A stretch of 64,000 bases of DNA from Shimia sp. SK013. GTDB taxonomy: Bacteria > Pseudomonadota > Alphaproteobacteria > Rhodobacterales > Rhodobacteraceae. Location of the stretch: assembly GCF_001292625.1 (NCBI RefSeq), contig NZ_LAJH01000013.1, forward strand, positions 124,001-188,000, written 5' to 3'. The position numbers and the translations under genes are program-made. This document shows, piece by piece, positions 699 through 41,447 of the stretch. The notes under the pieces were generated by a model. The model had not been told where the DNA came from, ran no database searches, and saw nothing but the letters and a program-made list of their open reading frames with translations. Position 1 is the first letter of the stretch. Each line of letters begins with the position of its first letter.

Positions 699-1487
699 TC
701 AAAGGTCAAAGGTCGCAAACACTGGCGCATGGTCACTGGGTTTTTCCCAGCCCCGCGCATCGCGCAAAACCCGGCTTGAATGCCCCGCATTGGAGATATC
801 ACCAGTCGCCCATACATGATCCAGCCGCCGCCCCTTGTCGGCTGCATCCCAATCCCGGGCGCGATAGCTCCACCAGCTATAAAGCTGTCCTTCAGGGACA
901 TCCTGTCGCGTGATATCAACCCATCCGCCCGCGTCCTGTGTCTCGGCCAGTGCTTCGACTTCAACCGGTGTATGGCTGACGATCTTCAGCAGCTTCTTGT
1001 GGTCCCACACATCGTCTTCGCGCGGCGCGATGTTCAAATCCCCGACAAGCACCGCCTTCTGCATCTTCTCACGGTGAAAATAGTCGCGCATATCGCTGAG
1101 ATAATCGAGCTTCTGGCCAAATTTCTCGTTCTTCTCGCGGTCCGGCACATCGCCGCCCGCTGGCACATAAAAATTGTGGACCGTCACACCGTTTTCCAGC
1201 TTGCCGGCGATATGACGCGCGTGGCCGAGGTCTGCAAAATCTTCCGCGCCGGCTTCAACCATCGGGAATTTCGACAGGATCGCGACACCGTTATAGCCCT
1301 TCTGCCCGCGCGCAACCATGTGCGTGTAGCCAAGCGCGGCAAATCCTTCGGTCGGGATCTTATCAACCGGGCTTTTGCACTCCTGCAAACACAACACATC
1401 CGGCGCTTCTTCTTGCAGCAGTTTAAGCACAATTGGCTCGCGCAAACGCACCGAATTGATGTTCCAGGTGGCAAGACTAAAGGACAT
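699..1487 (-). CDS. xthA: Exodeoxyribonuclease III
   Basis: This 262-residue protein covers the whole endonuclease/exonuclease/phosphatase fold and has the usual length for ExoIII. Visible catalytic elements are Asn10 (ATWNIN), Glu36 (LQECK), Asp150 and Asn152 (VGDLNIAP), the RRLDHVW segment near 221 and the terminal Asp252-His253 (SDHAP). The enzyme cleaves DNA at abasic sites and removes 3' blocking groups during base excision repair in the cytoplasm. It precedes the thioredoxin/TPR gene on the same strand and is separated from the upstream response-regulator gene by a strong terminator, so it probably has its own promoter between about 1488 and 1580. The family call is firm. Confidence 0.95.
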   Translation of the reverse strand: MSFSLATWNINSVRLREPIVLKLLQEEAPDVLCLQECKSPVDKIPTEGFAALGYTHMVARGQKGYNGVAILSKFPMVEAGAEDFADLGHARHIAGKLENGVTVHNFYVPAGGDVPDREKNEKFGQKLDYLSDMRDYFHREKMQKAVLVGDLNIAPREDDVWDHKKLLKIVSHTPVEVEALAETQDAGGWVDITRQDVPEGQLYSWWSYRARDWDAADKGRRLDHVWATGDISNAGHSSRVLRDARGWEKPSDHAPVFATFDL

Positions 1488-1580
1488 GAAAACTCTCCGC
1501 GCTGATACTGTTCGCGCACCCTACCCTTGCCCCTGACGCGATGCCAATGCCATTTCCTGCGCATTGGTGCACCGCCGCCC

Positions 1581-1610
1581 AAAAAAAAGACCCGAGCCGA
1601 GGCCCGGGTC
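1581..1610 (-). terminator. Rho-independent terminator (minus strand)
   Basis: Arms 1589-1598 and 1601-1610 form a ten-base GC-rich stem with one mismatch. On the minus strand the stem is followed by eight T residues (A-run at 1581-1588). It lies downstream of the response-regulator gene and upstream of xthA, so it should end the former's transcript. Confidence 0.85.
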
Positions 1611-1624
1611 AGTCCAACAGGGAG

Positions 1625-1664
1625 GTCATGTCATAACCCGGACATGGCGGGGTTCTCTCATGAC
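1625..1664. other. Nested inverted repeat in response-regulator to xthA gap
   Basis: Outer arms GTCATG (1625-1630) and CATGAC (1659-1664) enclose inner arms AACCC (1635-1639) and GGGTT (1650-1654). The structure sits between the response-regulator stop codon and the terminator at 1581-1610. It could be an RNA hairpin in the 3' untranslated region or an operator for xthA. No function can be assigned from sequence. Confidence 0.4.
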
Positions 1665-1745
1665 TCTGATATAGGAAGAATCTTACGGAATTCTTGCTTT
1701 ATCGGCGCCAAGGTTGTTCTTTTTTCTGTCACACTGGACACCTTT

Positions 1746-2432
1746 CTAGGCAACCAGCCGATATCCACCACTCTCCGTCACCAAAAGCCGCGCGTTGCTG
1801 GGATCGGGCTCGATCTTCTGGCGCAGGCGATAGATGTGTGTTTCAAGCGTGTGCGTTGTAACGCCAGCATTGTAGCCCCACACCTCATGTAGCAGCACAT
1901 CCCGCGCCACCACGCCGTCCGTGGACCGATACAGATACTTGAGGATGTTGGTCTCTTTCTCGGTCAGGCGGATTTTGCGCTCATCTTCAGTGATCAGCAT
2001 CTTCATCGCTGGCTTGAACGTATATGGACCAAGTACAAATACCGCGTCCTCAGATTGCTCATGCTGGCGCAGCTGCGCCCGAATGCGGGCCAACAGCACT
2101 GGGAATTTGAACGGTTTGGTCACGTAATCGTTGGCACCGCTATCAAGGCCCAAAATCGTGTCCGCGTCGCTGTCATGCCCCGTCAGCATCAGGATCGGGC
2201 TCTTGACCCCCTGCTTGCGCATCAGGCGACACAATTCGCGCCCGTCTGTGTCCGGCAGGCCCACATCAAGAATGATGATGTCATACAGGCCTTCTTTGAC
2301 GCGACTCATCGCCTCGACGCCATTTCCGGCCTCAAAGACATCAAAATCTTCGGTCATCACAAGCTGCTCTGACAGAGCCTCGCGCAGATCTTCATCATCA
2401 TCCACAAGCAGGATTTTCTTAAGCTGGGCCAT
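1746..2432 (-). CDS. OmpR/PhoB-type response regulator, apparently orphan
   Basis: The 228-residue protein has a receiver domain at residues 5-118 with the acidic pair Asp11/Asp12, phospho-acceptor Asp56 (IILDVG), Thr84 and Lys106 (VTKPF). A winged-helix DNA-binding domain follows at about 130-228, ending in the typical GGYRLVA strand. These features predict a phosphorylation-controlled DNA-binding transcription factor. No histidine kinase gene is adjacent, so it is an orphan locally. The very conserved-looking receiver and the orphan status resemble the alphaproteobacterial envelope regulator CenR, but I cannot confirm that assignment. It is transcribed divergently from ribA and ends before the terminator at 1581-1610. 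Confidence 0.9.
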   Translation of the reverse strand: MAQLKKILLVDDDEDLREALSEQLVMTEDFDVFEAGNGVEAMSRVKEGLYDIIILDVGLPDTDGRELCRLMRKQGVKSPILMLTGHDSDADTILGLDSGANDYVTKPFKFPVLLARIRAQLRQHEQSEDAVFVLGPYTFKPAMKMLITEDERKIRLTEKETNILKYLYRSTDGVVARDVLLHEVWGYNAGVTTHTLETHIYRLRQKIEPDPSNARLLVTESGGYRLVA

Positions 2433-2604
2433 CCGTATCCTCCACGTTCAATCTGTATCACTTTGTTGTTCACGACATGTATACGAACGAAAGCCGCAAC
2501 AAGATTTGCTGCAATTGCCTCACGGCCTCGTGTTTCTGTGACGTCAAATGTTTCATCTTGCGACAAAGGCAGCTAAATGTGATGCGCTAAGCCGCGAGGA
2601 CCCC

Positions 2605-3696
2605 ATGAGTTTTTCTCCCGATATCGTCGAACGTCTGGCCCGCGCCAGAGCTGACCTGCGCATGGGTGTGCCTATTGTGCTGACCGGCAACGGCACGGCG
2701 ATTATCCTAATGGCTGTTGAAACGCTGGACCGCGCCCGCCTTGCGGATTTGCGGGCTTTGGGCGGCGCGCCCTTGTTGGTGATCACTGGCCGTCGGGCCG
2801 AAACGCTTAAGGCGCGAGCCTATGATGGCGACATTGCCCGCGTTCATCTGCCCAGTGATGCCGACCTGAACTGGCTACGCGGCATCGCTGATCCCGCCGA
2901 CGACCTCATGCGCCCGATGAAAGGCCCGCTGCAAACCGAACGTGAGGGGGATGCCGACTTGCACCGCGCCGCCGTCAAATTGGTGAAGTCGGCGCAACTT
3001 TTGCCCGCAGCTTTGTCTCTGCCTCTCCCAAACGCTGGCGCCTTTGCTCTGGAACACGGCCTCACCGTGATCCCAGCCGACCTCGCGGCGCCACATCTGA
3101 CGGCCACAAGCCCTTTGCACCCTGTCGTGCACGCCCGCTTGCCGATTTCTGCGGCTGACGCGGGTCGTCTGCACATCTTCCGGCCCGAAGACGGCGGCGA
3201 AGAACACTATGCCATCGAGGTCGGCCGGCCACCCCGCGACAAACCCGTGCTCGCGCGTTTGCACTCCGCCTGTTTCACCGGCGACGTGCTTGGATCTCTG
3301 AAATGCGATTGCGGCCCACAACTCAACGCCGCTTTGATGCAAATGGGGGCCGCTGGCGCAGGCGTGTTGCTTTATCTCAACCAAGAAGGTCGCGGCATTG
3401 GCCTCGCCAACAAAATGCGCGCCTACTCGCTGCAGGATCAGGGCTTTGATACCGTTGAGGCCAACCACCGCCTCGGTTTTGAGGATGACGAGCGCGATTT
3501 CCGCATTGGCGCCAAAATCCTCGCGGAAATGGGGTTTTCATCGGTGCGACTGCTCACCAACAATCCCCGCAAGATCGAGATGATGGAAAACGCGGGCGTC
3601 TCTGTCGCAGAACGCGTCGCGCTCAAGGTCGGCGAAAACGCCCACAACCGCGCCTACCTCGCCACCAAAGCCAACAAATCAGGCCACATGCTGTGA
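2605..3696 (+). CDS. ribA: GTP cyclohydrolase II with degenerate RibB-like N-terminal domain
   Basis: I chose ATG 2605 because a GAGGA ribosome-binding site lies just upstream; an in-frame extension to 2548 lacks one. The C-terminal half (about 180-363) is GTP cyclohydrolase II: zinc ligands Cys223, Cys234 and Cys236, the NQEGRGIGL active-site strand at 259-267, and the TNNPRK segment at 318-323. It opens GTP in the first step of riboflavin synthesis. Residues 1-175 have the length and general look of a DHBP synthase (RibB) domain but lack the acidic DDE and EGD signature at its active site, so this half is probably not catalytic. The next gene overlaps by 4 bp, implying co-translation. Confidence 0.9.
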   Translation: MSFSPDIVERLARARADLRMGVPIVLTGNGTAIILMAVETLDRARLADLRALGGAPLLVITGRRAETLKARAYDGDIARVHLPSDADLNWLRGIADPADDLMRPMKGPLQTEREGDADLHRAAVKLVKSAQLLPAALSLPLPNAGAFALEHGLTVIPADLAAPHLTATSPLHPVVHARLPISAADAGRLHIFRPEDGGEEHYAIEVGRPPRDKPVLARLHSACFTGDVLGSLKCDCGPQLNAALMQMGAAGAGVLLYLNQEGRGIGLANKMRAYSLQDQGFDTVEANHRLGFEDDERDFRIGAKILAEMGFSSVRLLTNNPRKIEMMENAGVSVAERVALKVGENAHNRAYLATKANKSGHML

Positions 3697-4187
3697 GTCC
3701 CTTCGACCTTGTGCTTACAAAGCGCGGGGTGCGCTACATGAGCCGCTATTTTCCCTGCACCATCGGCAAGGGTGGCCTGCAGTCAGACAAACGCGAAGGT
3801 GACGGCGCCACTCCGCGTGGCACCCATCGTATCACTGGTTTGCTCTATCGCGCCGACCGCCTCGCCTCACCCGCACCGTGGGCACACCCCATCGGCAAGG
3901 ACGACCTCTGGTCAGACGCGTCAGGCGACACCGCCTACAACCACCATGTCCGCGCACCCTACGCGCCAAGCCACGAACGCCTGCGCCGAGCTGATCCTTT
4001 GTATGACATGATTCTGCTCACCGATTGGAACTGGCCTGACGCGCAGCCGGGCAAAGGCTCGGCGATTTTCCTGCACAGCTGGCGACGTCGCGGGGCCCCA
4101 ACGGAGGGCTGCATCGCCTTTCGTCGGGATCACATGAAAATCATTGCGGCGCACGCCGGTCCCGGCACGCGCCTGATTGTGCGCTAA
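3693..4187 (+). CDS. L,D-transpeptidase (YkuD) family protein
   Basis: The GTG start at 3693 overlaps the ribA stop by four bases. The 164-residue protein carries the YkuD signature near its C-terminus: His128 (FLHSW), then Gly139-Cys140 (TEGCIAF), Cys140 being the nucleophile. Earlier blocks GDGATPRGTH and the YNHHV segment also fit the family. L,D-transpeptidases make 3-3 crosslinks in peptidoglycan or attach lipoproteins to it in the periplasm. I see no N-terminal signal peptide, so either the start is wrong, export is atypical, or the protein acts in the cytoplasm. Pairing with ribA looks like an arrangement of convenience. It converges on the next gene with a three-base gap. Confidence 0.85.
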   Translation: MSPFDLVLTKRGVRYMSRYFPCTIGKGGLQSDKREGDGATPRGTHRITGLLYRADRLASPAPWAHPIGKDDLWSDASGDTAYNHHVRAPYAPSHERLRRADPLYDMILLTDWNWPDAQPGKGSAIFLHSWRRRGAPTEGCIAFRRDHMKIIAAHAGPGTRLIVR

Positions 4188-4190
4188 GGC

Positions 4191-4583
4191 TCACTCAGGG
4201 TACTTGCGTGCCGCTTTGGCCTTTCCAACCACCTTGCCATCCGCCCGTGCTGTCGCGGTCCACTCATAGGTATGTGTGCCGCTCGGTGGACAAGGGCTTT
4301 TGTATTTGAACGTCCCCGCAGCCACGCGACCATCCTGCGATATCTTCAGCTTCTTGCTGCCACCATGGTTATAGTTCGGCACGTCCAGATCCTTGATCTT
4401 GAACTGCACGGTGGTTGTCCCTGCTGGCAGACCTGTCACGACAAACTCAGGATTACCAACGGTGTTTGGGCGCCCGGTGGTACAGGACTTAATGCCTCCC
4501 CAATTGGCAAAAGAGATCTTGAATTCGGCGGCTGCGGGGACTGCCCACAGCGCCACAAAAATTGCTCCGATAAAAAGACGCAT
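4191..4583 (-). CDS. Small secreted protein, divergent PEBP (YbhB/YbcL)-like, copy 1
   Basis: The start chosen is ATG 4583, which opens directly on a signal peptide of about 21 residues ending VPAAAE; the longer frame to 4694 adds sequence without export features. The mature part contains a GLPAGTTT turn, a KDLDVPNYNHGG stretch and a SPCPPSGTHTYEW strand, which recall phosphatidylethanolamine-binding/YbhB proteins in order and spacing. It is shorter than a normal PEBP (about 110 mature residues) and its ligand pocket is incomplete. Two cysteines could form a disulfide in the periplasm. The next upstream gene on this strand is a clear paralogue, so this is a tandem duplication. Function unknown. 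Confidence 0.7.
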   Translation of the reverse strand: MRLFIGAIFVALWAVPAAAEFKISFANWGGIKSCTTGRPNTVGNPEFVVTGLPAGTTTVQFKIKDLDVPNYNHGGSKKLKISQDGRVAAGTFKYKSPCPPSGTHTYEWTATARADGKVVGKAKAARKYPE

Positions 4584-4724
4584 TCCTAAAAACTCCACTA
4601 GAGACGATACACTCAGAGTATGACCGCTTTTTTTGTATACCAATGACAATTTCGGCGAGAGCTCAATTCCCTCCAAGGCGCCACCACCTCGCAAAACCTT
4701 GCGCGAGAAACATCCTGCGCCCTC

Positions 4725-5120
4725 TTACTCCGGATACTTGCGCCTTGCCTTCGCGTTGCCGCTGATCCGGTTTCCCGCCCGCGCCGTGGCCTTCCACTCA
4801 TAGGTATTTGCGCCATTCACCGGACATGGACCCCGATAGTTAAACGTGCCTGCAGGGATGCGTCCGTCAGCCGGAACCGGCAATCGTTTGCTCGCCCCGC
4901 GATTGGCAGCCGGCACGTTCAGGTTCTTGAAATAGAACTGCACCGTCGTCGTTCCAGCCGGAATATCCGTCAAATAGAACTCGGGATTGGGAACCGACTT
5001 CGGATTACCGTTGTTGCAAAACGGGATATCCCCCCAACCGTCAAACCGCAGGGAAAACTCTGCGGACGCCATTCCAGCGCTTACACAAAGGGACAAAACA
5101 GCAAAAAGAAAACGCATCAT
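4725..5120 (-). CDS. Small secreted protein, divergent PEBP-like, copy 2
   Basis: This 131-residue protein has a Sec signal peptide (residues 1-20, ending AGMASA) and shares with its neighbour the blocks NPEF, IPAGTTTVQF, GTFNYRGPCP, NTYEWKATARA and the identical terminus ARRKYPE. The start has an AGGAG four bases upstream; a second ATG follows immediately and could also serve. The same conserved cysteines are present. Because both copies keep their signal peptide and core motifs, both are probably functional. It is separated from copy 1 by about 140 bp and transcribed in the same direction, perhaps as one unit. Ligand and role are unknown. Confidence 0.7.
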   Translation of the reverse strand: MMRFLFAVLSLCVSAGMASAEFSLRFDGWGDIPFCNNGNPKSVPNPEFYLTDIPAGTTTVQFYFKNLNVPAANRGASKRLPVPADGRIPAGTFNYRGPCPVNGANTYEWKATARAGNRISGNAKARRKYPE

Positions 5121-5191
5121 AAAACTCCTGAAACAATGGGGCCGTGTCTAAGTGTTGCATAGACCCCGCCACTGCTCAAAGAGGCGCTTCA

Positions 5192-5848
5192 TCACGTTTG
5201 CGTCGGACGCTCTCCAAAGATCGCTGACCCCACACGCACATGCGTCGCGCCCAGCGCCACAGCCCGCTCAAAATCGCCGCTCATGCCCATGCTGAGCCCG
5301 TCTAGCCCGTTGCGTGCCGCCATCTTGGCGAGCAGGGCAAAATGCAGCGAGGCTTCCTCGTCTACCGGTGGGATGCACATCAGGCCCACAATCGGCAACT
5401 CCAACGCGCGGCACTCCGCGACAAATCCATCCAAATCTTGTGGCAGCACACCCGCCTTCTGCGGCTCTTCACCTGTATTCACCTGAACAAAAAGATCGGG
5501 ACACGTACCCATTTCCTGCGCCAATCGTGCCAGCGTCTTGGCCAACTTTGGACGGTCCAGCGAATGGATCACATCAAACAACTCGATCGCTTGGCGGGCT
5601 TTGTTGGACTGCAGCGGCCCCAACAAATGCACCGAAACGCCCTCGTAAGTCTCTTTGAAGCTAGGCCACTTGCTTGCCGCTTCCTGCACCTGGTTCTCAC
5701 CAAACACCCGATGCCCGTCTGCAAGCACCTCCGCCACCCGCGCGTCGGGCTGTCGCTTGCTGACGGCGATCAACTGCGTCGCGCCCACCGCGCGGTCCGC
5801 ATCTGCTTCAGCCTTGTGAATAAGTGCGGTGATTTCGGCAAGCGACAT
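5192..5848 (-). CDS. yggS: YggS/PLPBP family pyridoxal-phosphate homeostasis protein
   Basis: ATG 5848 is preceded by GAGGAG at good spacing; a longer frame to 5893 has no such site. The 218-residue protein matches the alanine-racemase N-terminal TIM-barrel family in one domain: Lys31 in AVSK is the residue that binds pyridoxal phosphate, followed by FGENQVQE, HLLGPLQSNK, VNTGEEPQKAG, LMCIPP, LSMGMSGDFE and VRVGSAIFG, all in family order. Members bind PLP without known catalysis and buffer vitamin B6 and amino-acid pools in the cytoplasm. The Cys in LMCIPP replaces the more usual Thr. It stands alone between the PEBP-like pair and the porins. Confidence 0.93.
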   Translation of the reverse strand: MSLAEITALIHKAEADADRAVGATQLIAVSKRQPDARVAEVLADGHRVFGENQVQEAASKWPSFKETYEGVSVHLLGPLQSNKARQAIELFDVIHSLDRPKLAKTLARLAQEMGTCPDLFVQVNTGEEPQKAGVLPQDLDGFVAECRALELPIVGLMCIPPVDEEASLHFALLAKMAARNGLDGLSMGMSGDFERAVALGATHVRVGSAIFGERPTQT

Positions 5849-5945
5849 AATGGGCTCCTCAGACAGGGTGTGACGTGTATCTGCGCCCCGCAAACAACAC
5901 CATTGCCGCCCAAAAGAAAAGCCTCTGCACCCGCTCTTTCAATGC

Positions 5946-5970
5946 AAAAAGGCAGAGCCGAAGCCCTGCC
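5946..5970 (-). terminator. Porin 1 terminator with UUCG loop
   Basis: On the minus strand an eight-base stem (one G-U pair) closes a TTCG tetraloop within 5951-5970 and is followed by five T residues (5946-5950). It lies 30 bp after the stop of the first porin gene. Confidence 0.85.
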
Positions 5971-5999
5971 TTTCGCTATGTGTTTTGATCAAGAACCGA

Positions 6000-6881
6000 T
6001 CAGAATTGGAAACGCACACCAAGGTCGGCAAGCGTGGCGCCCAGCTCGTTGCCGTGCACAGCTCCCGCAAGAACCGCGCCGCCCAGAGAGTGTGTGAAGC
6101 CCAGCCCCCAAAGAGTGTCAGTGCCGCTTTCGTCATCCGCCACAAAGGCCGTGATGTCGGTGCCGGACCCAACCTGAACAGTGCCGTGCAGGCGCCATTT
6201 GTCGGTGCCGTCGTTGTCACCGTAACCAGCGCCAACGCTAAAGTTGCCAAATTCGGCGCCACCGATCAGCAGCAGTTTTTCGTCAATCGCGAGAGGACCG
6301 TCCTGATAAGCACCAGACACAAACCAGTTGCTGCCTTCATAAGCCAGAACCAGAGCGGTCAACTCAGTCGAGGAACCGTAGCTCAGGTGGCCCATAAAGC
6401 CGCTGTTGGAATAGATGACTTCAGCACCGTTTGAACCACCACCAGCAGAGCTGAAGGCGTCATAGTTGCCGCCGGTGCGGTTTGTGACCGCAACCGCTGT
6501 CGGGTCATTAAAGGCCGTCAGGCCAATTTCGCCGTCATACAGGCCGGGCATTTCTTCGATCGCACCCTCGATGTTGCCTGTTGCGAATTCAAAATTGCCA
6601 ACGCGCAGACCAACACGTGGTGCCGAAACACCGGAAGGTGACGTGGCACTAATACCTTCGTTTTCGCCACGAACGCGAACGCGTGCAAAGAACTCAATGC
6701 CCGTGTCGGCTTGAACCGACCCATCGATGTTCAGTGTGAAACGGTTGTGGAGCTTAACCTCATTCGCTGCGGAGTCGTCATAAACGACACCAAAACGGGC
6801 CGAGCCGCCAAAGTTGATCTCTGCTGCCGCAACGCCTGCGGACAGAACCAGAGCTGTCGATGTAAGGAGGAGATGTTTCAT
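6000..6881 (-). CDS. Outer-membrane porin (Rhodobacter type), paralogue 1
   Basis: A 293-residue protein with a Sec signal peptide (residues 1-20, ending GVAAA) and a mature chain starting EINFGGSARFG. It alternates short amphipathic strands and ends VRFQF, the C-terminal aromatic signature recognised by the BAM complex for outer-membrane barrels. Shared porin blocks are RFTLNIDGS, GIEFFARVR, GVSAPRVG, MPGLYDGEIGLT, AEVIYSN and the terminal LWGLGF. It should form a general diffusion channel for small solutes. It is the last of three tandem paralogues; each has its own promoter region and terminator, so they may be expressed separately. Confidence 0.93.
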   Translation of the reverse strand: MKHLLLTSTALVLSAGVAAAEINFGGSARFGVVYDDSAANEVKLHNRFTLNIDGSVQADTGIEFFARVRVRGENEGISATSPSGVSAPRVGLRVGNFEFATGNIEGAIEEMPGLYDGEIGLTAFNDPTAVAVTNRTGGNYDAFSSAGGGSNGAEVIYSNSGFMGHLSYGSSTELTALVLAYEGSNWFVSGAYQDGPLAIDEKLLLIGGAEFGNFSVGAGYGDNDGTDKWRLHGTVQVGSGTDITAFVADDESGTDTLWGLGFTHSLGGAVLAGAVHGNELGATLADLGVRFQF

Positions 6882-6977
6882 GGGGAATCCAATAATCTGG
6901 GGAGTTCAAAGGAGTTCTTTTGATGAAGACATACTCTCAAAATACGTGCCCTGAGACAACGACCCAAATGCTGCAGG

Positions 6978-6997
6978 TGCAAAGATGTTGTGCAAAG
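6978..6997. promoter_or_regulatory. Direct repeat TGCAAAG upstream of porin 1
   Basis: TGCAAAG occurs at 6978-6984 and again at 6991-6997, a 13-bp period, about 100 bp upstream of the porin 1 start. A related inverted motif lies upstream of porin 2. This may be a regulator site, but seven bases twice is weak evidence. Confidence 0.3.
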
Positions 6998-7002
6998 GCC
7001 AC

Positions 7003-7030
7003 AAAAAAGGGGCAGGCCAAGGCCTACCCC
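7003..7030 (-). terminator. Porin 2 terminator
   Basis: Arms 7009-7018 and 7021-7030 form a ten-base stem (one G-U pair in the minus-strand RNA) with a two-base gap, followed on the minus strand by six T residues. It begins about 20 bp after the porin 2 stop codon. Confidence 0.85.
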
Positions 7031-7051
7031 AATCTCGAAATGTTGCGTTGA

Positions 7052-7942
7052 TCAGAAGGAGAAACGCACACCCAAATCGGCTTGGTTTTCGCCGTCTTCG
7101 TCGCCGACAACACCGCCAACGAGCTCTGCACCACCGAGGTCATGCACAAAGCCCAGACCCCACATGGTTTTGCTGGATGCGATGTCTTCATCAGCAACAA
7201 AGGCTGTCACGGCTGTACCGGAACCGACACGAGCGGTGCCGCTCAGACGCCATTTGTCGACGCCGTCGTTGTCGCCGTAGCCGACGCCGATGTCATAGTT
7301 GTTGGCGATTGTGACGCCAGCGGTCAGCAACGTTTTGTCTTCGCCAACCATGCCGCCGTCTTGGTAACCGGCTGCAACGAACCATGTGTCGGCGGTGTAA
7401 GCCACGTTCACAGCGGTGCGTTCGCTGGTCGCGCTGTGGGACATGTGACCCGAGAACGCGCCGTTGGAGTACAGCACTTCTGCACCGTTAGCACCACCAC
7501 CAGTGGAGGAGAACGAATCCCAGTCGTAATCGTTGGCGGAGGTAAGAGCCACAGCGTTAAGGTCGCCCAATGCGGTCAGACCCACTTCGCCGTCGTACAG
7601 GCCGGGCATTTCTTCGATCGCACCAAGGATGTTGCCCACTGCAACTTCCACACCATTGTAGCGCATCCCCACGCGCGGAGCAGATACGCCACTGTCGTGG
7701 GAGCCGCTTGTGTCGTTGGTTTCGCTCTGGATACGGATACGCGCGAAGAACTCGAGACCGGAATCGGTTTCGGTGGTCGCGTCGATGTTCAACCGGAAAC
7801 GGGTGTGAACGTTAAAATCGTCAGTTGCGGCAGTGGAGTCGTAGAGACCACCAAAGCGAGCTTCGCCGGAGAAGGTGATGTCCGCCGCGGCAACGCCAGC
7901 CGACAGTGCAAGCGCCGTAGAGGCGAGGAGTAGGTTTTTCAT
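7052..7942 (-). CDS. Outer-membrane porin (Rhodobacter type), paralogue 2
   Basis: ATG 7942 follows a GGAAG ribosome-binding site and opens on the signal peptide (ends GVAAA); the longer frame to 8014 only adds non-signal sequence. The 296-residue protein ends VRFSF and has the same blocks as its neighbours: RFRLNID, GLEFFARIR, GVSAPRVG, MPGLYDGEVGLT, AEVLYSN and MWGLGF. Loop regions differ, for example the constriction-loop area around residues 130-160, so permeability may differ between paralogues. Located in the outer membrane. It is preceded by about 330 bp of non-coding DNA, which probably contains its promoter and regulatory sites. Confidence 0.93.
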   Translation of the reverse strand: MKNLLLASTALALSAGVAAADITFSGEARFGGLYDSTAATDDFNVHTRFRLNIDATTETDSGLEFFARIRIQSETNDTSGSHDSGVSAPRVGMRYNGVEVAVGNILGAIEEMPGLYDGEVGLTALGDLNAVALTSANDYDWDSFSSTGGGANGAEVLYSNGAFSGHMSHSATSERTAVNVAYTADTWFVAAGYQDGGMVGEDKTLLTAGVTIANNYDIGVGYGDNDGVDKWRLSGTARVGSGTAVTAFVADEDIASSKTMWGLGFVHDLGGAELVGGVVGDEDGENQADLGVRFSF

Positions 7943-30825: not shown

Positions 30826-32232
30826 TTAAACCTTATGATCCAGCGGCCGTTCAAATGCCCAGACTGTCAATTTTTCAGCCACACCGCGAATGTCCTGATT
30901 GGTGAACTTCTGCAAGCCGTCCAGACATTCATCACCGCCTTCCGCCAAAACCTCGGCCCGCATGCCATCGCTGATCACCAGACGCGCATTTAAACCCCGG
31001 GTCATACTTTCCAACCGGGAGGCCACATTTACAGTGTTGCCTACAACGGCAAATTCAAGCCGGTTCGCGCCGATGTCAGCCAAAACCGCCGGACCATAGT
31101 GCGCGCCAAACCCAACCCGCAACGGCGGCTGCCCTTTGGCGATCCGTTTGGTGTTCCAATCATCTACGTCCGCCATCATTTGACGCACGCATTTCATGGC
31201 ATTCTGGGCGTCATGATCCGAAGGACTGGGCGTGCCAAACGTCGCCATCAGCCCATCACCAAGGTACTTGTCCAACGTTCCTTCGTGGGAAAACACCGCG
31301 CGCTCCATAAGACCATGAAAATCCCTTAGGGTGTCGATAACCTCCTCCGGTTTGCGCGTTGCGGCGAACTCGGTGAAACTGACGATATCCACAAACAACA
31401 CTGCGATGTCGTGGCTTCGGATTTGTTTGAGAGGTTCGTCATTCTGGCTTAGTTCTTCGACCACATTCGGTGAGAAATAGCGCGACAGGTTGGTTCGTTC
31501 CCGCTCAAGCGATGCATTTGACCGCATCAGCGCGTTGAACCGCCGCACGCCAAGACCCAACACAATTGCGACCAATACAAAAATCACGATTTCCTGAATG
31601 CGTTCCTGAACGTTGAAGCGGTTAGGATCCACTTGCTCCGCCAGCCCCGGAAAGTCGAGCAGCGCGCCGCTGACTGCTTCACTGATGCCCGGAATTGGCT
31701 CGGTGAACCAAATTGAAATCCCCAAGGCCGCCGCCCACATAACGCCAGTCCACGTGCCAATCGCAATCACAGTCCGCCAAGAGTACGCCAGCGTGCCAGC
31801 AGCCAAAATCAGGAAAAAGTATTGGAAATTTCCGAACTGAAATTGCATTGCCTGCGGCCAGTCCGCGTGGGCAATCGGATTAGGGCCAATCATGCCCACA
31901 ACCATCAGAGATAGGTCAACAAAGATCAGAAACAGCTCCGTCCGCGATTTTCCGACGCGGCCCACTCTGCGGATCAACCATCCGTTGATACACAACAGTA
32001 GTAGGATAAACTCGTAGTAAAAGACGTCGGGCCAAGGCGCTACAAAAAGCAAAAAAACGCCAACCACAGCCATCGCGACCCAACGCGCGACAACGGCAAG
32101 CTCCAAACCCTCGCGCTTGTGTTTCTCAAGCACGGCCTCGGTATAGCTGTCGTCTCGAAATCCGTCCTCGTCAAACCGATCAAGCACAACAGCTTTCTCG
32201 TTGCGCGCGTCCGTCGCGGTGTTCTGGGCCAT
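30826..32232 (-). CDS. Membrane-bound class III adenylate/guanylate cyclase
   Basis: The 468-residue protein has about six hydrophobic helices in residues 45-235, then a short coiled linker (MRSNASLERERTNLSRYF region) and a class III cyclase domain at about 272-440. Metal aspartates are Asp282 (VLFVDIVSF) and Asp326 (DKYLGD); Lys322 fits an ATP-selecting position. The later LEFAVVGNTVNVASRLE strand supplies the Asn and Arg of the active site. All catalytic positions look intact, so it probably makes cAMP at the inner membrane in response to an unknown signal. It reads toward alkB, and no dedicated partner is adjacent. Confidence 0.9.
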   Translation of the reverse strand: MAQNTATDARNEKAVVLDRFDEDGFRDDSYTEAVLEKHKREGLELAVVARWVAMAVVGVFLLFVAPWPDVFYYEFILLLLCINGWLIRRVGRVGKSRTELFLIFVDLSLMVVGMIGPNPIAHADWPQAMQFQFGNFQYFFLILAAGTLAYSWRTVIAIGTWTGVMWAAALGISIWFTEPIPGISEAVSGALLDFPGLAEQVDPNRFNVQERIQEIVIFVLVAIVLGLGVRRFNALMRSNASLERERTNLSRYFSPNVVEELSQNDEPLKQIRSHDIAVLFVDIVSFTEFAATRKPEEVIDTLRDFHGLMERAVFSHEGTLDKYLGDGLMATFGTPSPSDHDAQNAMKCVRQMMADVDDWNTKRIAKGQPPLRVGFGAHYGPAVLADIGANRLEFAVVGNTVNVASRLESMTRGLNARLVISDGMRAEVLAEGGDECLDGLQKFTNQDIRGVAEKLTVWAFERPLDHKV

Positions 32233-34949: not shown

Positions 34950-34975
34950 AGGCCGTTTGGGCGCAGGGTTTGACC

Positions 34976-35278
34976 ATGTTGACACAGCTTTCACAATCCC
35001 TTCGCAAGCTAGCGATCCCTGTCGCACTTGCACTGGCATCTCCCGCTGGGGCTGCCGACTGTTACGCCGACTACAAAGCTAAGAAGGACAACCCTTTGCG
35101 GCTGCACTACGGTGTGATCGCGTTGCGGTCTGGCTGTGATAAGCCATCGGCACGGACAGAAGTCGCAAACCGCATCGCCAAGGACGACTGGACTTTGCTA
35201 GACGTCCTCTCGGTGTTTGACGAAACCGAACTTTCTGGAAAGGAAGCCAGTGCAGGGCAATTCTACCTCTTCTACTGA
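34976..35278 (+). CDS. Small secreted protein, unknown function
   Basis: ATG 34976 has AGGG upstream; an in-frame TTG two codons earlier is less likely. The 100-residue protein has a clear Sec signal peptide (about 1-28, ending SPAGAA-DC) and a short mature part with two cysteines (ADCYADY, RSGCDK) that could pair. I do not recognise a family. It overlaps the next gene by 29 bp if that gene starts at GTG 35250, which suggests translational coupling with the membrane-anchored winged-helix protein. Likely periplasmic; its placement makes it a candidate sensor or effector of that operon, which is inference. Confidence 0.65.
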   Translation: MLTQLSQSLRKLAIPVALALASPAGAADCYADYKAKKDNPLRLHYGVIALRSGCDKPSARTEVANRIAKDDWTLLDVLSVFDETELSGKEASAGQFYLFY

Positions 35279-35954
35279 CTTACGCCGCAACGGTGGGCGC
35301 ATGGTTAGCTTTGGCATAGGTGCGATCGTTGCGATCCTTCTGGCGGGCACGATTGTTTTGGTCGTTGCGCTTCCGGACGCCAACGCCTTCAATGCACGGG
35401 TAGAGCAGTTGTTTTTGGAAAACGACACGCTGACGGGCCAGGCCGAAATCAAACTCTTGGAAATTCTCGCCCAGTCCGGCACGGCCTTTGCCGATACACT
35501 GGCCAGTTACCGCATGGTGATCCTTGTGCTCTTGGTCTTTGCAACAGCGATGATGATTGCCGCACTGGTCTTTCTTGTGGCGCTGGTGATGATGAATCGT
35601 CGTATGGCGCAAATCGAACGCGCAGGCATTCAGGTGAATTCCTTGATCGTCAGCCGGGACGAAAAGACCGTCTACCTCAACAACATGGGCTTTAAGCTCA
35701 CCGATGCAGCGATGGAGACGCTTTCGGTTCTGGCCGAGGCGCGGTTGGACGATGATGTGATTTCCGGCATCGAGATCGAGGCTGTGATCTCTGGAAAATC
35801 GACGGCGGATTGTGATGAGGCGGCGGGTGCTACCCGGATCAAAAGGCTACGCGACAGTCTCGGCAATCAAATGGTGAGCGAGCTTCTGGTTAAAAACATT
35901 GCGCGCAAAGGCTATATGTTGGCCATCGACAAGGACGTGATACGTGTCTTGTGA
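35250..35954 (+). CDS. Membrane-anchored protein with C-terminal winged-helix-like domain
   Basis: I prefer GTG 35250 because AAGGAAG precedes it; ATG 35301 is the alternative and would trim 17 residues. The 234-residue protein has two transmembrane helices (about 20-42 and 84-112) separated by a roughly 40-residue loop with the VEQLFLEND segment, probably periplasmic. The C-terminal 100 residues end with IKRLRDSLG and NIARKGYMLAI, which resemble the recognition helix and closing strand of OmpR/PhoB-type winged-helix domains (as in ToxR/CadC). The domain order is inverted relative to ToxR, because here the DNA-binding part follows the membrane helices. It could be a one-component membrane regulator. 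It precedes a cyclase gene by 105 bp. Confidence 0.6.
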   Translation: MQGNSTSSTDLRRNGGRMVSFGIGAIVAILLAGTIVLVVALPDANAFNARVEQLFLENDTLTGQAEIKLLEILAQSGTAFADTLASYRMVILVLLVFATAMMIAALVFLVALVMMNRRMAQIERAGIQVNSLIVSRDEKTVYLNNMGFKLTDAAMETLSVLAEARLDDDVISGIEIEAVISGKSTADCDEAAGATRIKRLRDSLGNQMVSELLVKNIARKGYMLAIDKDVIRVL

Positions 35955-36059: not shown

Positions 36060-37634
36060 ATGGAAGGGTCTCGATTTAACAGTGCGGCGGGTTATGGCAT
36101 CGACATCGAACCCGTGAAAGGTCGCGTGCGGATCTTGCGCGATGGGATCGTATTGGCGGACAGCACCCGCGCCAAGGTGATGTATGAAACCCGCCTGACG
36201 CCACAAGTCTATGTTCCACTGGAAGACGTCACCGTTGATTTGTCTGATCAAACGGATCTGAAAACCTTTTGCCCCTTCAAAGGCACAGCACGATACCGCA
36301 ACATGGTTCTGGACACAGAAACCATTACGAACGGTGTCTGGTCCTATGACGACGCGCTGCCCGAAAGCCGTGACATCAATGGCTTTATCGGCTTTCTGTC
36401 CTCAAGCTATACAGAGGTTGACCTCGGCGAAGCGCAATTCGACGCCGGGGTTGCAGGCAACATCTCCGGTCCGCTGGTCGATTGGCTTATGCGCGGCGCG
36501 GCCTTTGAGCCCACCCCCGAGGATTTCATCCGCGCCTTGGGCGAAAAGATGATCGAAAGTGGCATCGCACTTTATCGAATGTCCGCGATGATCTGGTCAC
36601 TTCACCCAATGATCGCCGGCAAAAACTATATCTGGACACGCGATGCCGACGAAATACGCACGCTCGCACCGTCTTATGAGTTGTTCGAGCATCGCAGCTT
36701 CATCAATTCGCCGCTTCACCATGTGTCCAATGGACTAGGTGGTGTGCGTCAAATGCTGGACGTGCCCGACGACAAGATGCAGTTCCCAATCATGAAAGAC
36801 CTCAAGGATGAGGGGGCTACGGATTACGTTGCCATGCCACTGTTTTTCTCCAACGGGCAGGTCAACGTGCTTACCTTGACCAGCGACCATCCCGATGGCT
36901 TCACCACTGCCAACCTTGGCCTTATCTTCGAAGTTTCCAGCGTCATCAGTCGTTTCTTTGAGGTTTTCACCCAGAAAGAAAACGCCCAATCCCTTTTGGA
37001 AACATACGTTGGTCGGCGGTCCGGAGCGCGGGTTCTCGGCGGTGAAATTCGGCGCGGCGACGGGGATGAAATCGATGCTGCCATCATGTTCTGCGATTTG
37101 CGCGGCTCAACTAGCCTTGAAGAGAAACTGGGGCGCGCGACTTACATCGAGCTATTGAACGGTTTCTTTGACACGGTGTCTGCGGTTGTCCACGACACAG
37201 ATGGAGAGGTGCTAAAGTTCATCGGAGACGCCGTTTTGGCCGTATTCCCCGACCATGAAAAAGGCACCGAAGGCAGCATCAACGCAATTGAAGCCTGCAA
37301 GGGCATTGTTGCCCAATTAGACGCGTTGTCCCAAGAGGGATCGCAGCGCATAGAGTGTTCCATTGGTGTCAGCCATGGCAGCGTAACCTACGGCAATGTC
37401 GGCTCTCTGGAACGTTTGGATTTTACCGTGATCGGACAACCTGCAAATGTTGCGGCACGCTTAGGTGATTACGGCAAAAAAGTCGGCCACCGCATTGTCG
37501 TGTCTCAGGATTTGGCAGACCAATGCGACGACTGTATCCCACTTGGCCCCGTCTCTTTGCACAATGTATCCGAACCCGTAGAAAGCTTCGCCGTCAACGC
37601 CGGCGTGGCGAAACCTGCGGAGCCTGCGGCCTAA
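36060..37634 (+). CDS. DUF427 domain fused to class III nucleotide cyclase
   Basis: This 524-residue protein joins two domains seldom seen together. Residues about 18-112 are a DUF427 domain: VRILRDGIVLADS, VYVPLEDV, FCPFKGTARY and NGVWSYDDALPE follow that family's order. Residues about 150-310 look like a GAF-type sensory region, and 338-490 form a class III cyclase with metal aspartates Asp346 and Asp390, Lys387 (LKFIGD), Asp454 (DFTVIG) and Asn463/Arg467. All catalytic positions seem present. No transmembrane helix is visible, so it should be cytosolic. It likely makes cAMP under control of a ligand read by the N-terminal part. It follows the membrane winged-helix gene on the same strand. 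Confidence 0.85.
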   Translation: MEGSRFNSAAGYGIDIEPVKGRVRILRDGIVLADSTRAKVMYETRLTPQVYVPLEDVTVDLSDQTDLKTFCPFKGTARYRNMVLDTETITNGVWSYDDALPESRDINGFIGFLSSSYTEVDLGEAQFDAGVAGNISGPLVDWLMRGAAFEPTPEDFIRALGEKMIESGIALYRMSAMIWSLHPMIAGKNYIWTRDADEIRTLAPSYELFEHRSFINSPLHHVSNGLGGVRQMLDVPDDKMQFPIMKDLKDEGATDYVAMPLFFSNGQVNVLTLTSDHPDGFTTANLGLIFEVSSVISRFFEVFTQKENAQSLLETYVGRRSGARVLGGEIRRGDGDEIDAAIMFCDLRGSTSLEEKLGRATYIELLNGFFDTVSAVVHDTDGEVLKFIGDAVLAVFPDHEKGTEGSINAIEACKGIVAQLDALSQEGSQRIECSIGVSHGSVTYGNVGSLERLDFTVIGQPANVAARLGDYGKKVGHRIVVSQDLADQCDDCIPLGPVSLHNVSEPVESFAVNAGVAKPAEPAA

Positions 37635-38712: not shown

Positions 38713-39621
38713 TCAGGACTTAAACTTGGCTATGCGTGCGTCCGCAGCGCGCAACGCTTTGCGGAAAACCGGCGCGCCACGCCGGGCCAAAACAGCGGTG
38801 CAATACCGCTTGATCAGCTTAGGGCGATCGGACTTTTCCAGCGCTGCCAGCATCTCTTTCTGATATCGCGCAACTTCGCGACGCCGCCGCAAAAGCGTGT
38901 AAAACTCAGTTTGTGTCATGGTGCCCGCTACGCACCCTTCGATGACCGGTTTGAGAACCCCCATCAAAAGCCACAACGATGCAATCCGGTGTCCCATAAA
39001 GCGGCAGCGGTACTTGGTGACATTTTCTCCGCGATAAAGCGCAGCATGCATGGCATCCAGTGGCGCGCGCGGGTCATAAAACACATGCACTGCCTCGGCC
39101 GTCGCGGCCATCTCTGGACCATAGGCATACCGACTGTGAAAATCGCGCTTCCACGCCTTGCGATATCGCGTTTCCCAGCTTGCGATCTCGCGATCCAGCG
39201 TGGCCTGTGGAGAAATACAGATCACCGTCGCACCCGGCGCGGCGCTTGAAAACACCGACGCGGCATAAGCCCCCATCGAAGCGCCGTAAAAGATCACTTT
39301 TTCAAAGCCTTCAAAGAACCCGTCGTCGCGCAGCCGATCAAAGAAATCATGCACTGAATCGTCGCGATACCATGTCCAGTCGTGCGCCATCAGGCCCAGC
39401 ATCGACCAACCGCGTGACGTGACAAAATCATAGCCCCATGGCATCCGATCATCGCCCCGCTCATAAACGTGATCCAGATTTTCAAACGTCACGATTAGCG
39501 TTTTTCCACGCTCAACAAACAGCGCAGTATGCTCATCGCCAAGAGCCTCATAGAACCCTTCGGCCGCTCCGACTTTCTCAAGGTTGCCGCGCCATTCAAG
39601 TTGTGTTGGCTCTTTGGTCAC
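38713..39621 (-). CDS. Alpha/beta-hydrolase-like protein in glycan cluster
   Basis: The GTG start at 39621 overlaps the sulfotransferase stop (TAGTG), so the gene is coupled to it. The 302-residue protein has a nucleophile elbow GASMG (around 113-117, in VIFYGASMGAYAAS), preceded by a strand pattern of the alpha/beta-hydrolase fold (TLIVTFENLDH near 41-51). A later VHVFYDPRAPLDAMHA segment could supply the acid, and RFMGHRIAS the histidine. The C-terminal third is helical and basic. The predicted role is hydrolysis or acyl transfer on a glycan or lipid substrate made by the cluster, but the substrate is unknown. Confidence 0.7.
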   Translation of the reverse strand: MTKEPTQLEWRGNLEKVGAAEGFYEALGDEHTALFVERGKTLIVTFENLDHVYERGDDRMPWGYDFVTSRGWSMLGLMAHDWTWYRDDSVHDFFDRLRDDGFFEGFEKVIFYGASMGAYAASVFSSAAPGATVICISPQATLDREIASWETRYRKAWKRDFHSRYAYGPEMAATAEAVHVFYDPRAPLDAMHAALYRGENVTKYRCRFMGHRIASLWLLMGVLKPVIEGCVAGTMTQTEFYTLLRRRREVARYQKEMLAALEKSDRPKLIKRYCTAVLARRGAPVFRKALRAADARIAKFKS

Positions 39622-40382
39622 TATGCAGCCCGCGCGAGCCGGTGGCGCACGTCCTCATACATATCGAAATCCTCGCCAAAAGCGGTTTCGATGTTACGCC
39701 GATCTGTCGGAGTCATCGCCTCGATCATCTCAGCACTGGCCGACTTGTGGCCCAGCGAGCGACGTGTGTCCTGAACGACAGGCTGACCGACGTCAAACAA
39801 CGTTTTAACAACGAGACCCAGCGCCCCGTTCAGATCAGCCATATCGCCTACAAAATCGTAATTGATGAAGTCGTAAGACACTTCTTTTCGCTGGCTGCGC
39901 CAATGTCGGTCAATGTCGCGTGCGGCTTCGTCATGGGCCATGATGTCTAGAAACTGTGACAGCGTGATTTCGTCATCAACCGGTCGATTCAGATGACGCA
40001 TCAACTTGGCCTTCTGTTTCTCACCTTTGACAATTTTGTCTGAAAACGACGACACCGTCCGCGCAACCGGTTCTCGCACGACAGTGAATTTAAAGACCTG
40101 CCGATCCGCCAATGCCTCCATCACGTGCGCCATGGTCAGCCCTCGTGGACCGGTCAACAAAAGCGACTTGGGTGGAGTGTGCACGCTTGTCATGTCGATG
40201 GTTTCGCCACCGTCGCCGCGCAACTTGATCAGATTGTCCATCAACGTGGCCAAAACCGTCGTACAGGCGGCCTTGTGGTTTTTCATATAAAGGAACGGCT
40301 TTCCGAACACCGGAACGTTCACCAATTGCAAAAAATGCTTGGTATGTAGGTAGTTGTCCAGAATGCGAGGGTGGTGATCCAT
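39621..40382 (-). CDS. Sulfotransferase (PAPS-dependent, Golgi type 2-like)
   Basis: I place the start at ATG 40382, with AGAGGA upstream; GTG 40385 is also possible. The 253-residue protein carries the two PAPS-binding signatures: the 5'-phosphosulfate loop YMKNHKAACTTV (32-43) and the 3'-phosphate site VVREPVARTVSSF (near 96-108), resembling carbohydrate sulfotransferases of the HNK-1/chondroitin group. It would move sulfate from PAPS to a sugar hydroxyl. No signal peptide is seen, so sulfation should occur in the cytoplasm before export. It lies between the GT32-like gene (3-bp gap) and the hydrolase gene, implying a sulfated surface or secreted glycan. Confidence 0.85.
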   Translation of the reverse strand: MDHHPRILDNYLHTKHFLQLVNVPVFGKPFLYMKNHKAACTTVLATLMDNLIKLRGDGGETIDMTSVHTPPKSLLLTGPRGLTMAHVMEALADRQVFKFTVVREPVARTVSSFSDKIVKGEKQKAKLMRHLNRPVDDEITLSQFLDIMAHDEAARDIDRHWRSQRKEVSYDFINYDFVGDMADLNGALGLVVKTLFDVGQPVVQDTRRSLGHKSASAEMIEAMTPTDRRNIETAFGEDFDMYEDVRHRLARAA

Positions 40383-40385
40383 CAC

Positions 40386-41447
40386 TTAATCCTCTTGAAA
40401 CAGACTTGGCGCTGCTTGGATCAACTTCGCGCGACAGTCCTTGATAAACTGCTTATCCACGAGGAAATCGCGTGAAATTTTTTCCACGGAGGCCTCACCC
40501 TTGAGAGATTCAATTGCGATTTTGGCGCGGAATTCCGGATCATTTACCGGCGCCTGCTGCGTGACCTTCTTGGCGGGGATCGGCGCGGTATCGGGATCGA
40601 TGCCATGCTTTTTCATCACTTCGTCCATGAACGAGCCACGACGCGGGCGATTGTTCTCTGCTTCCTGCAAACGCGGCTTCATGCGGCGCGCCCAAAAATG
40701 CACCGCCTTGGTGTCTTCATTCAGCCAGTCTTTTTCGATATCGAACTTGCTCTGGAACATCTTGTTCCTGTCTTTGAACGATACGGGATAGAAGGCCTCA
40801 ACAGGTTCAGCATATTTGATCTCACCGCTCTGCTGCAGGAACCACGTCACCGCCGCCGGTCCGGTAAAGCCCCAGTTCTGCGCGGTCATATGCACCGGCT
40901 TACCCGCGTCTTTCTCGGCCTGAAGTTCCTTTTGCTGCCACGGCTTCAACCACGGACCAATCGCATACTCATCTTCAAAGAACTCAAGCATGTCCTTAAG
41001 TGCGCGTGAGGTCTTGGGCAGACCCAACACGGCGTTGCACACCAAACCCTCTTTCTCCCAGCCGAAAACGGTCTTGCGCGTAAACTTGAACGGCCGATAA
41101 CAATAAATATCGGCATCCACCCAGATCTTATCGGTCTTGGCCAACATGTTGAGCCGCCATAAATCGGCGTGGATCGCGGGGCTTCCTGTGCGCACATGAC
41201 GGTGCATCGGTTCGCCCGGAAAAATCTCGGCCGCATCCGCCGCGTGCACGCCCTCGGGAATGTTGGGAATTTCCTCGTAGCTATAGAGCGTCGTGTGATG
41301 CCCCATATCCGCGAAGGATTTTAGACATAGCTGTTCTAACCACGACAGACGCCCACCGATCCACAACGATGCAATTTCAGGAAGCCCGGCCATCTCGCCC
41401 ACCTTTTGTTCTTTATTTGAGAACAGTTTAGCCCACCCCGTGAGCAT
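40386..41447 (-). CDS. GT32-like glycosyltransferase with C-terminal IS3-OrfA-like helix-turn-helix
   Basis: GGAGAC lies just before ATG 41447. Residues about 22-260 form a glycosyltransferase of the DXD type: IASLWIGGRLSWLEQL, then HADLWRLNML and the metal motif Asp111-Ala-Asp113 (WVDADIYCYRPF), as in GT32/capsule enzymes. Residues 302-353 are unlike any glycosyltransferase tail: DPEFRAKIAIESLKGE, then VDKQFIKDCRAKLIQAA and SLF fit, position by position, the N-terminal helix-turn-helix of IS3-family OrfA (recalled pattern: PEFKAKVALEALxGE, VHPNQIxxWKKQLLExA). It may mediate oligomerisation or nucleic-acid contact. It is in the middle of a five-gene operon. Confidence 0.8.
   Translation of the reverse strand: MLTGWAKLFSNKEQKVGEMAGLPEIASLWIGGRLSWLEQLCLKSFADMGHHTTLYSYEEIPNIPEGVHAADAAEIFPGEPMHRHVRTGSPAIHADLWRLNMLAKTDKIWVDADIYCYRPFKFTRKTVFGWEKEGLVCNAVLGLPKTSRALKDMLEFFEDEYAIGPWLKPWQQKELQAEKDAGKPVHMTAQNWGFTGPAAVTWFLQQSGEIKYAEPVEAFYPVSFKDRNKMFQSKFDIEKDWLNEDTKAVHFWARRMKPRLQEAENNRPRRGSFMDEVMKKHGIDPDTAPIPAKKVTQQAPVNDPEFRAKIAIESLKGEASVEKISRDFLVDKQFIKDCRAKLIQAAPSLFQED
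40389..40544 (-). other. Transposase OrfA-like helix-turn-helix domain within the glycosyltransferase
   Basis: Domain annotation for residues 302-353 of the preceding gene. It is in frame with no stop, and no terminal repeats or second transposase frame (OrfB with a DDE core) are nearby, so this is a captured or convergent domain and not an insertion sequence. Confidence 0.6.

Follow-up and report, generated by a model that had tools for sequence, protein, structure and literature searches.

A DUF427 domain ahead of a GAF-like domain and a class III nucleotide cyclase in Shimia sp. SK013 and other Alphaproteobacteria

A gene of Shimia sp. SK013 raises the question of what a DUF427 domain does when it is attached to a nucleotide cyclase. 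DUF427 domains are widespread, being found in 151 of the 385 genomes in a sample of the class, and the accessible text of the open-licence literature examined states no function for them. The value of the fusion is that it gives a handle on this function, and with an enzyme that has a simple readout the question of the DUF427 ligand becomes a matter of a cAMP assay.

The open reading frame (36060–37634, forward strand; positions are those of the window, the whole stretch of 64,000 nucleotides that was analysed) encodes 524 amino acids, for which the ORF list, Pfam profiles and a predicted model give the domain order DUF427, GAF-like domain, helix and class III nucleotide cyclase. Its ATG is preceded by AGGATACGGAGGGCAGCCCC, in which a purine stretch resembling a ribosome site can be recognised by eye. 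The three domains and their order are evident from sequence and predicted structure, as are a full set of catalytic residues and the conservation of the DUF427 hallmarks. The protein is a sensor-coupled class III cyclase with DUF427 as an additional type of input module, and widens the range of architectures known among class III cyclases by one such module. The gene product is most likely a soluble adenylate cyclase with dual N-terminal control, and the best explanation of the whole, a soluble class III adenylate cyclase that is regulated via an outer DUF427 and an inner GAF-like module, is in our judgement somewhat more probable than all its competitors combined.

Three domains and their conserved residues

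The DUF427 domain (PF04248) covers residues 23–113 (36126–36398, forward strand), with a Pfam E value of 4.3e-24 and a score of 84.6 bits, above the curated cut-off of 22.1. In a phmmer search against solved structures, residues 16–113 matched 3djm_A, a crystal chain described as 'Uncharacterized Protein DUF427' (E 1.1e-10). The earlier note had placed the domain at residues 18–112 (36111–36395 of the same frame), and both searches bear this out. Shared with PF04248 (NTP_transf_9, DUF427; solved example 3djm) are the profile, the motif T-x-C-P-x-K-G-x-A-x-Y and a WSY-type motif, whereas the family members used for comparison are single or tandem DUF427 proteins and the domain is here N-terminal to a GAF-like cyclase. 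The model of the full length of 524 residues (mean pLDDT 85.6, pTM 0.61) has visibly separate domains, the packing between which is not reliable in view of this pTM; residues 14–121 are mostly beta, and the fold-search lists for the full model were filled by the cyclase domain, with cyclase-type and sensor-cyclase matches, so that the lack of a DUF427 match among them carries no weight. The domain had also been described as usually a short standalone protein, which is not the only form: tandem double DUF427 occurs in 14 of the 33 DUF427 ORFs that lack a cyclase and in 6 of 9 further loci (e.g. L001, L009 and L209–L212), shares that are biased upwards since the loci were chosen by high score or long frame. 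In the DUF427 tree the two domains of the tandem proteins occupy different regions.

Across 32 aligned fusions, E43, Y51, T69, C71, K74, G75 and Y96 are invariant. In 48 unfused DUF427 domains drawn from the best-scoring loci, 3djm included, the same residue is present 45 times at position 43, 48 times each at 51, 71, 74 and 75, and 47 times at 96, while position 69 has T in 33 domains and S in the other 15. Judged against these 48 domains, the family-conserved residues E43, Y51, P53, C71, K74, G75 and Y96 are present in the fused domain. Since the hallmark residues are kept in fused and unfused DUF427 alike, the fused domain is not decayed, and their retention argues for a DUF427 that may have kept its native binding or catalytic role.

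The GAF-like domain (residues ~138–282, 36471–36905) and the long helix joining it to the cyclase (residues 283–317, 36906–37010, from the secondary structure of the model), both on the forward strand, were absent from the description in the earlier note. A separate model of the middle region (residues 126–336), built from 35 aligned middle regions, had a mean pLDDT of 89.3. Its best solved fold match was the GAF domain 3o5y_B (Z 14.3, rmsd 2.9, 143 aligned residues), with phytochrome PAS-GAF and LuxR-type domains also in the list within about 2 Z units, and the tandem GAF structure of a cyanobacterial adenylyl cyclase, 1ykd, was ranked third by Foldseek. In Pfam, residues 126–336 gave no confident match, GAF_2 reaching only 14 bits (E 0.06) against a cut-off of 28.6, and for this reason the domain is called GAF-like and not a Pfam GAF domain. 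GAF is a usual sensor fold. With 1ykd the protein has in common that a GAF domain would regulate a class III cyclase, but the outer module of 1ykd is a second GAF domain and here it is DUF427. Alphaproteobacterial proteins such as those at L051, L054, L090 and L092 have the same middle and cyclase domains without DUF427, and the unfused rows of the middle-region alignment share 23–37% identity.

The C-terminal catalytic domain (residues ~335–512, 37062–37595, forward strand) matched the Guanylate_cyc profile (PF00211) at residues 340–484 (E 1e-12; 48.5 bits, cut-off 21.9), and many class III cyclases matched the C-terminal third in the phmmer search of solved structures. The catalytic fold is that of the CyaB/CyaC/OaPAC type, with Z scores of 22.8 for 3r5g, 24.6 for 1wc1 and 25.4 for 8qfg; for CyaC (1wc1_C) the rmsd was 1.7 over 181 aligned residues. 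The sensors of solved entries of this type are BLUF, GAF or others, and none of the solved cyclases matched is described with a DUF427 domain. Alignments with 3r5g and 5x4t have in common with the fusion the two metal Asp, the Lys, the Thr/Asp, the Asn and the Arg positions, which are occupied here by D346, K386, D390, T456, N463 and R467. We take D346 and D390 to be the metal-binding aspartates, K386 and T456 the purine-site residues, with T456 presumably of the class IIIb type, and N463 and R467 the transition-state residues. An earlier claim that the catalytic residues are intact thus holds for D346, D390, N463 and R467, but the lysine had been misplaced at 387, which is a phenylalanine; it is K386.

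All six positions are the same as in the window in each of 80 named loci, the best 80 of the 483 relatives that were confirmed in named genomes. In the 32 aligned fusions D346 and D390 are present throughout, K386 in 27 (R in the other five), T456 and R467 in 31, and N463 in 30, the remainder being one I (L072) and one sequence (L081) that ends before T456, N463 and R467. The arginines occur in the distant fusions L078, L079, L028, L086 and L087. Such K386R and N463I replacements may alter substrate choice or activity and, with R in five and I in one of the 32, some members may lack adenylate cyclase activity. The L081 copy, in genome G135, has the remainder of its cyclase domain directly downstream in another frame, and therefore looks broken or mis-assembled.

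Recurrence and origin of the fusion

Of 198 genomes of the family, sampled at one per genus, 13 had a match that extends from DUF427 across the cyclase. In the class sample, DUF427 and the middle domain were covered together by at least 22 matches, from at least 20 of the 385 genomes and at least 12 family codes, and in a phylum sample of 398 genomes only three full-span rows, all of the window's family, were among the matches listed. Of the 13 genomes sampled within the genus, 12 had their DUF427 match in an open reading frame at least 524 aa long, the cyclase domain being checked in the frames of G000 and G004; the exception, G006, is the smallest genome. In all 80 named loci (best 80 of 483) the match covers both DUF427 and the GAF-like region, and the cyclase follows. 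Most of them are from Shimia, Ruegeria, Leisingera and Tateyamaria, genera of the Roseobacter group. The closest named relative is that of Shimia sp. Alg240-R146 (L098), with 92% identity in the best segment, residues 1–336. The fusion is also present in two plasmid records of Parasedimentitalea, where it is annotated as 'DUF427 domain-containing protein'. Fused homologues thus exist in family, class and named genomes, as the proposal of a fusion to a class III cyclase had implied.

It is hardly credible that two neighbouring genes were joined merely by faulty assembly or gene calling. One stop codon is listed within the matched stretch in 5 of the 13 full-span rows of the family, and the early end of L081 with its cyclase remainder in another frame could be read in the same way. 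However, the five rows each still have a single ORF of 513–636 aa with all three domains, the other eight are free of stops, and the recurrence across the family, the class, the named loci and the two annotated plasmid records excludes chance and assembly error.

Most of the relatives listed for the middle region in the family and class samples are without DUF427; in the family sample these are matches from about residue 139 onward, i.e. proteins consisting of a GAF-like and a cyclase domain. DUF427 therefore looks as if it had been added to a sensor-cyclase that already existed. We envisage that it came to lie ahead of a GAF-like cyclase, possibly in one event in an ancestor among the Alphaproteobacteria. 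On whether there was only one such event, the evidence points both ways. In a quick tree of the GAF-like and cyclase domains (50 rows, 31 of them fused, several unfused rows on long branches), all fused rows fall on one side of one branch. This branch has a support of only 13; a group that takes in L090, the nearest unfused row, together with all 31 fused ones has a support of 93. A tree of the DUF427 domains (80 rows, 113 columns) needs four changes of the fusion label, and the starred branches force at least three; a single change is seen in 0% of 200 bootstrap trees, and the short standalone domains of L005, L027 and L036, which are on a long branch, are placed among the fused rows. A tree constrained to keep the fused DUF427 rows in one clade is nevertheless not rejected by the AU test (p 0.427). 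The domain may have been joined once and later lost, split off or transferred, or there may have been several fusions.

Nine close sequences gave a median dN/dS of 0.13 for DUF427, 0.09 for the GAF-like domain and 0.12 for the cyclase, obtained from the 21, 25 and 26 of 36 pairs that had a finite dS; since dS is near saturation these values are rough. They suggest that all three domains are under purifying selection. Conservation is lowest in DUF427, with a mean identity to the window over the 80 loci of 0.60 as compared to 0.68 for the GAF-like domain and 0.64 for the cyclase. In the closest pair, the window and L098, dN is 0.087 for DUF427, about six times the value of the GAF-like domain (0.015), and 0.033 for the cyclase. 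The faster change of DUF427 than of its partner domains counts against the best explanation given above.

Possible roles of the DUF427 domain

Since the GAF-like domain separates DUF427 from the cyclase, and many relatives have a GAF-like cyclase but no DUF427, the latter is at most a second, outer input. In the sections of PMC4287342 that deal with the family, DUF427 is called a domain of unknown function and is assigned a beta-tent fold without zinc, and the beta-tent families studied there carry a ligand-binding cradle, which makes a ligand-binding role for DUF427 reasonable. Ligand sensing by the fused domain, as hinted at in the earlier note, appears plausible. The Pfam short name NTP_transf_9 hints at a nucleotidyltransferase role, and was set aside as the beta-tent assignment in the same part of PMC4287342 speaks against it. 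In the portions available of PMC5307852 and PMC3388012, DUF427 is named in tables, in the former with an automatic link from PF04248 to deoxyhypusine monooxygenase. Text matches in extracts of PMC6316151, PMC13304343 and PMC4615327 concern DUF4278 or DUF4279 and not DUF427. A paper describing a DUF427–cyclase fusion was not found in the open-licence literature, even though automatic annotation already labels such proteins by their DUF427 domain; the excerpt of PMC13313319 that discusses CyaB does so with a class IV reference and does not show it to be a fusion protein.

According to the best explanation, the enzyme would be active, would make cAMP and would probably work as a homodimer. Its outer DUF427 module would have the beta-tent fold of its family and its inner module a GAF-like fold. 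A small ligand may be bound by DUF427 in a conserved pocket and so tune the cyclase: a signal at the DUF427 or the GAF-like domain would pass via the helix of residues 283–317 to the dimeric catalytic domain and alter the cAMP output.

A different role, possible though doubtful, is that of an accessory catalytic or protein-binding domain which is co-localised with the cyclase but does not regulate it, the GAF-like domain alone being the sensor. Such a role would suit the many relatives in which the GAF-like and cyclase core occurs by itself, so that DUF427 is not needed for core function. The strongly conserved C71, K74 and E43 are compatible with an active site, and the linker of residues 123–136 is poorly conserved (mean identity 0.40). 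It is less easily reconciled with the conservation of the fused order across at least 12 family codes in the class. Furthermore, N-terminal modules of cyclases are usually regulatory.

That DUF427 is a small-molecule or redox sensor which directly gates cAMP synthesis, perhaps through the hairpin with the invariant Cys71 and Lys74, is a more specific proposal and in our view an unlikely one. If true, direct gating of cAMP would be the first function assigned to the DUF427 family and, to our knowledge, second-messenger signalling in bacteria would gain its first input module with a beta-tent fold. It is still more improbable that the domain is only a structural or dimerisation cap without a ligand. 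This would agree with the lack of a known DUF427 ligand and with the label of unknown function in that part of PMC4287342, but the fusions keep the same hallmark residues as unfused DUF427, which a mere cap need not do.

Genes around the fusion

Upstream of the fusion, and on its strand, are a 102-aa ORF (34970–35278) and a 245-aa ORF (35217–35954), the latter with two hydrophobic segments recognised by eye and a weak match to an OmpR-type winged helix (Trans_reg_C, E 0.0072, below cut-off). With its C-terminal winged helix the 245-aa protein is reminiscent of a membrane-anchored one-component regulator. Relatives of these two ORFs are each present in 74 of the 80 named loci (best 80 of 483). 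The 245-aa gene was considered as a fusion-specific partner and rejected, as it is a core neighbour that occurs in 157 of 198 family genomes, only 12 of which carry the fusion; one of the 13 fusion carriers, G471, gave no match to it. Downstream, on the reverse strand, genes for an alpha/beta-hydrolase-like protein (below cut-off), a sulfotransferase and a glycosyltransferase-like protein lie in a row at 38713–41447, and their relatives are beside the fusion in 9, 2 and 9 of the 80 named loci.

Outside the family, 19 loci were compared (a twentieth, L197, is inside the window's family), with flanks of at most 6 kb, some of them shortened by contig ends. None of the window's non-cyclase neighbours was found at these 19 loci, and the cyclase query hit the fusion and other cyclases. 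Cyclases and shadow ORFs excepted, neighbour families shared by at least three of the outside-family loci came from only three genomes with one family code. The standalone DUF427 gene of the window's genome has as neighbours genes for MTHFR, a thioesterase, a peptidase M24, an ABC transporter, an FtsX-like permease and a chloride channel. No common theme or clue to a ligand emerged from the neighbours of the fusion, of standalone DUF427 and of a single distant fusion.

Roughly 4 kb upstream of the fusion gene, the opposite strand carries a gene for another class III cyclase, of 468 aa (30826–32232; Guanylate_cyc, E 1.1e-21). The order of this cyclase, a DNA methylase, RNase HII and the fusion recurs in most of the named loci (the first three genes in 73, 74 and 74 of the best 80, respectively, with the position of the cyclase given for 42) and on plasmid pW43D. 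Other cyclases are encoded no more than about 6 kb from the fusion in the distant loci L178, L181, L182 and L186. The block is not chromosomal in every case: on the 110-kb plasmid pW43D of Parasedimentitalea marina (L219), the block at 703–7521 comprises a cyclase, a site-specific DNA methyltransferase, RNase HII, hypothetical proteins and the fusion.
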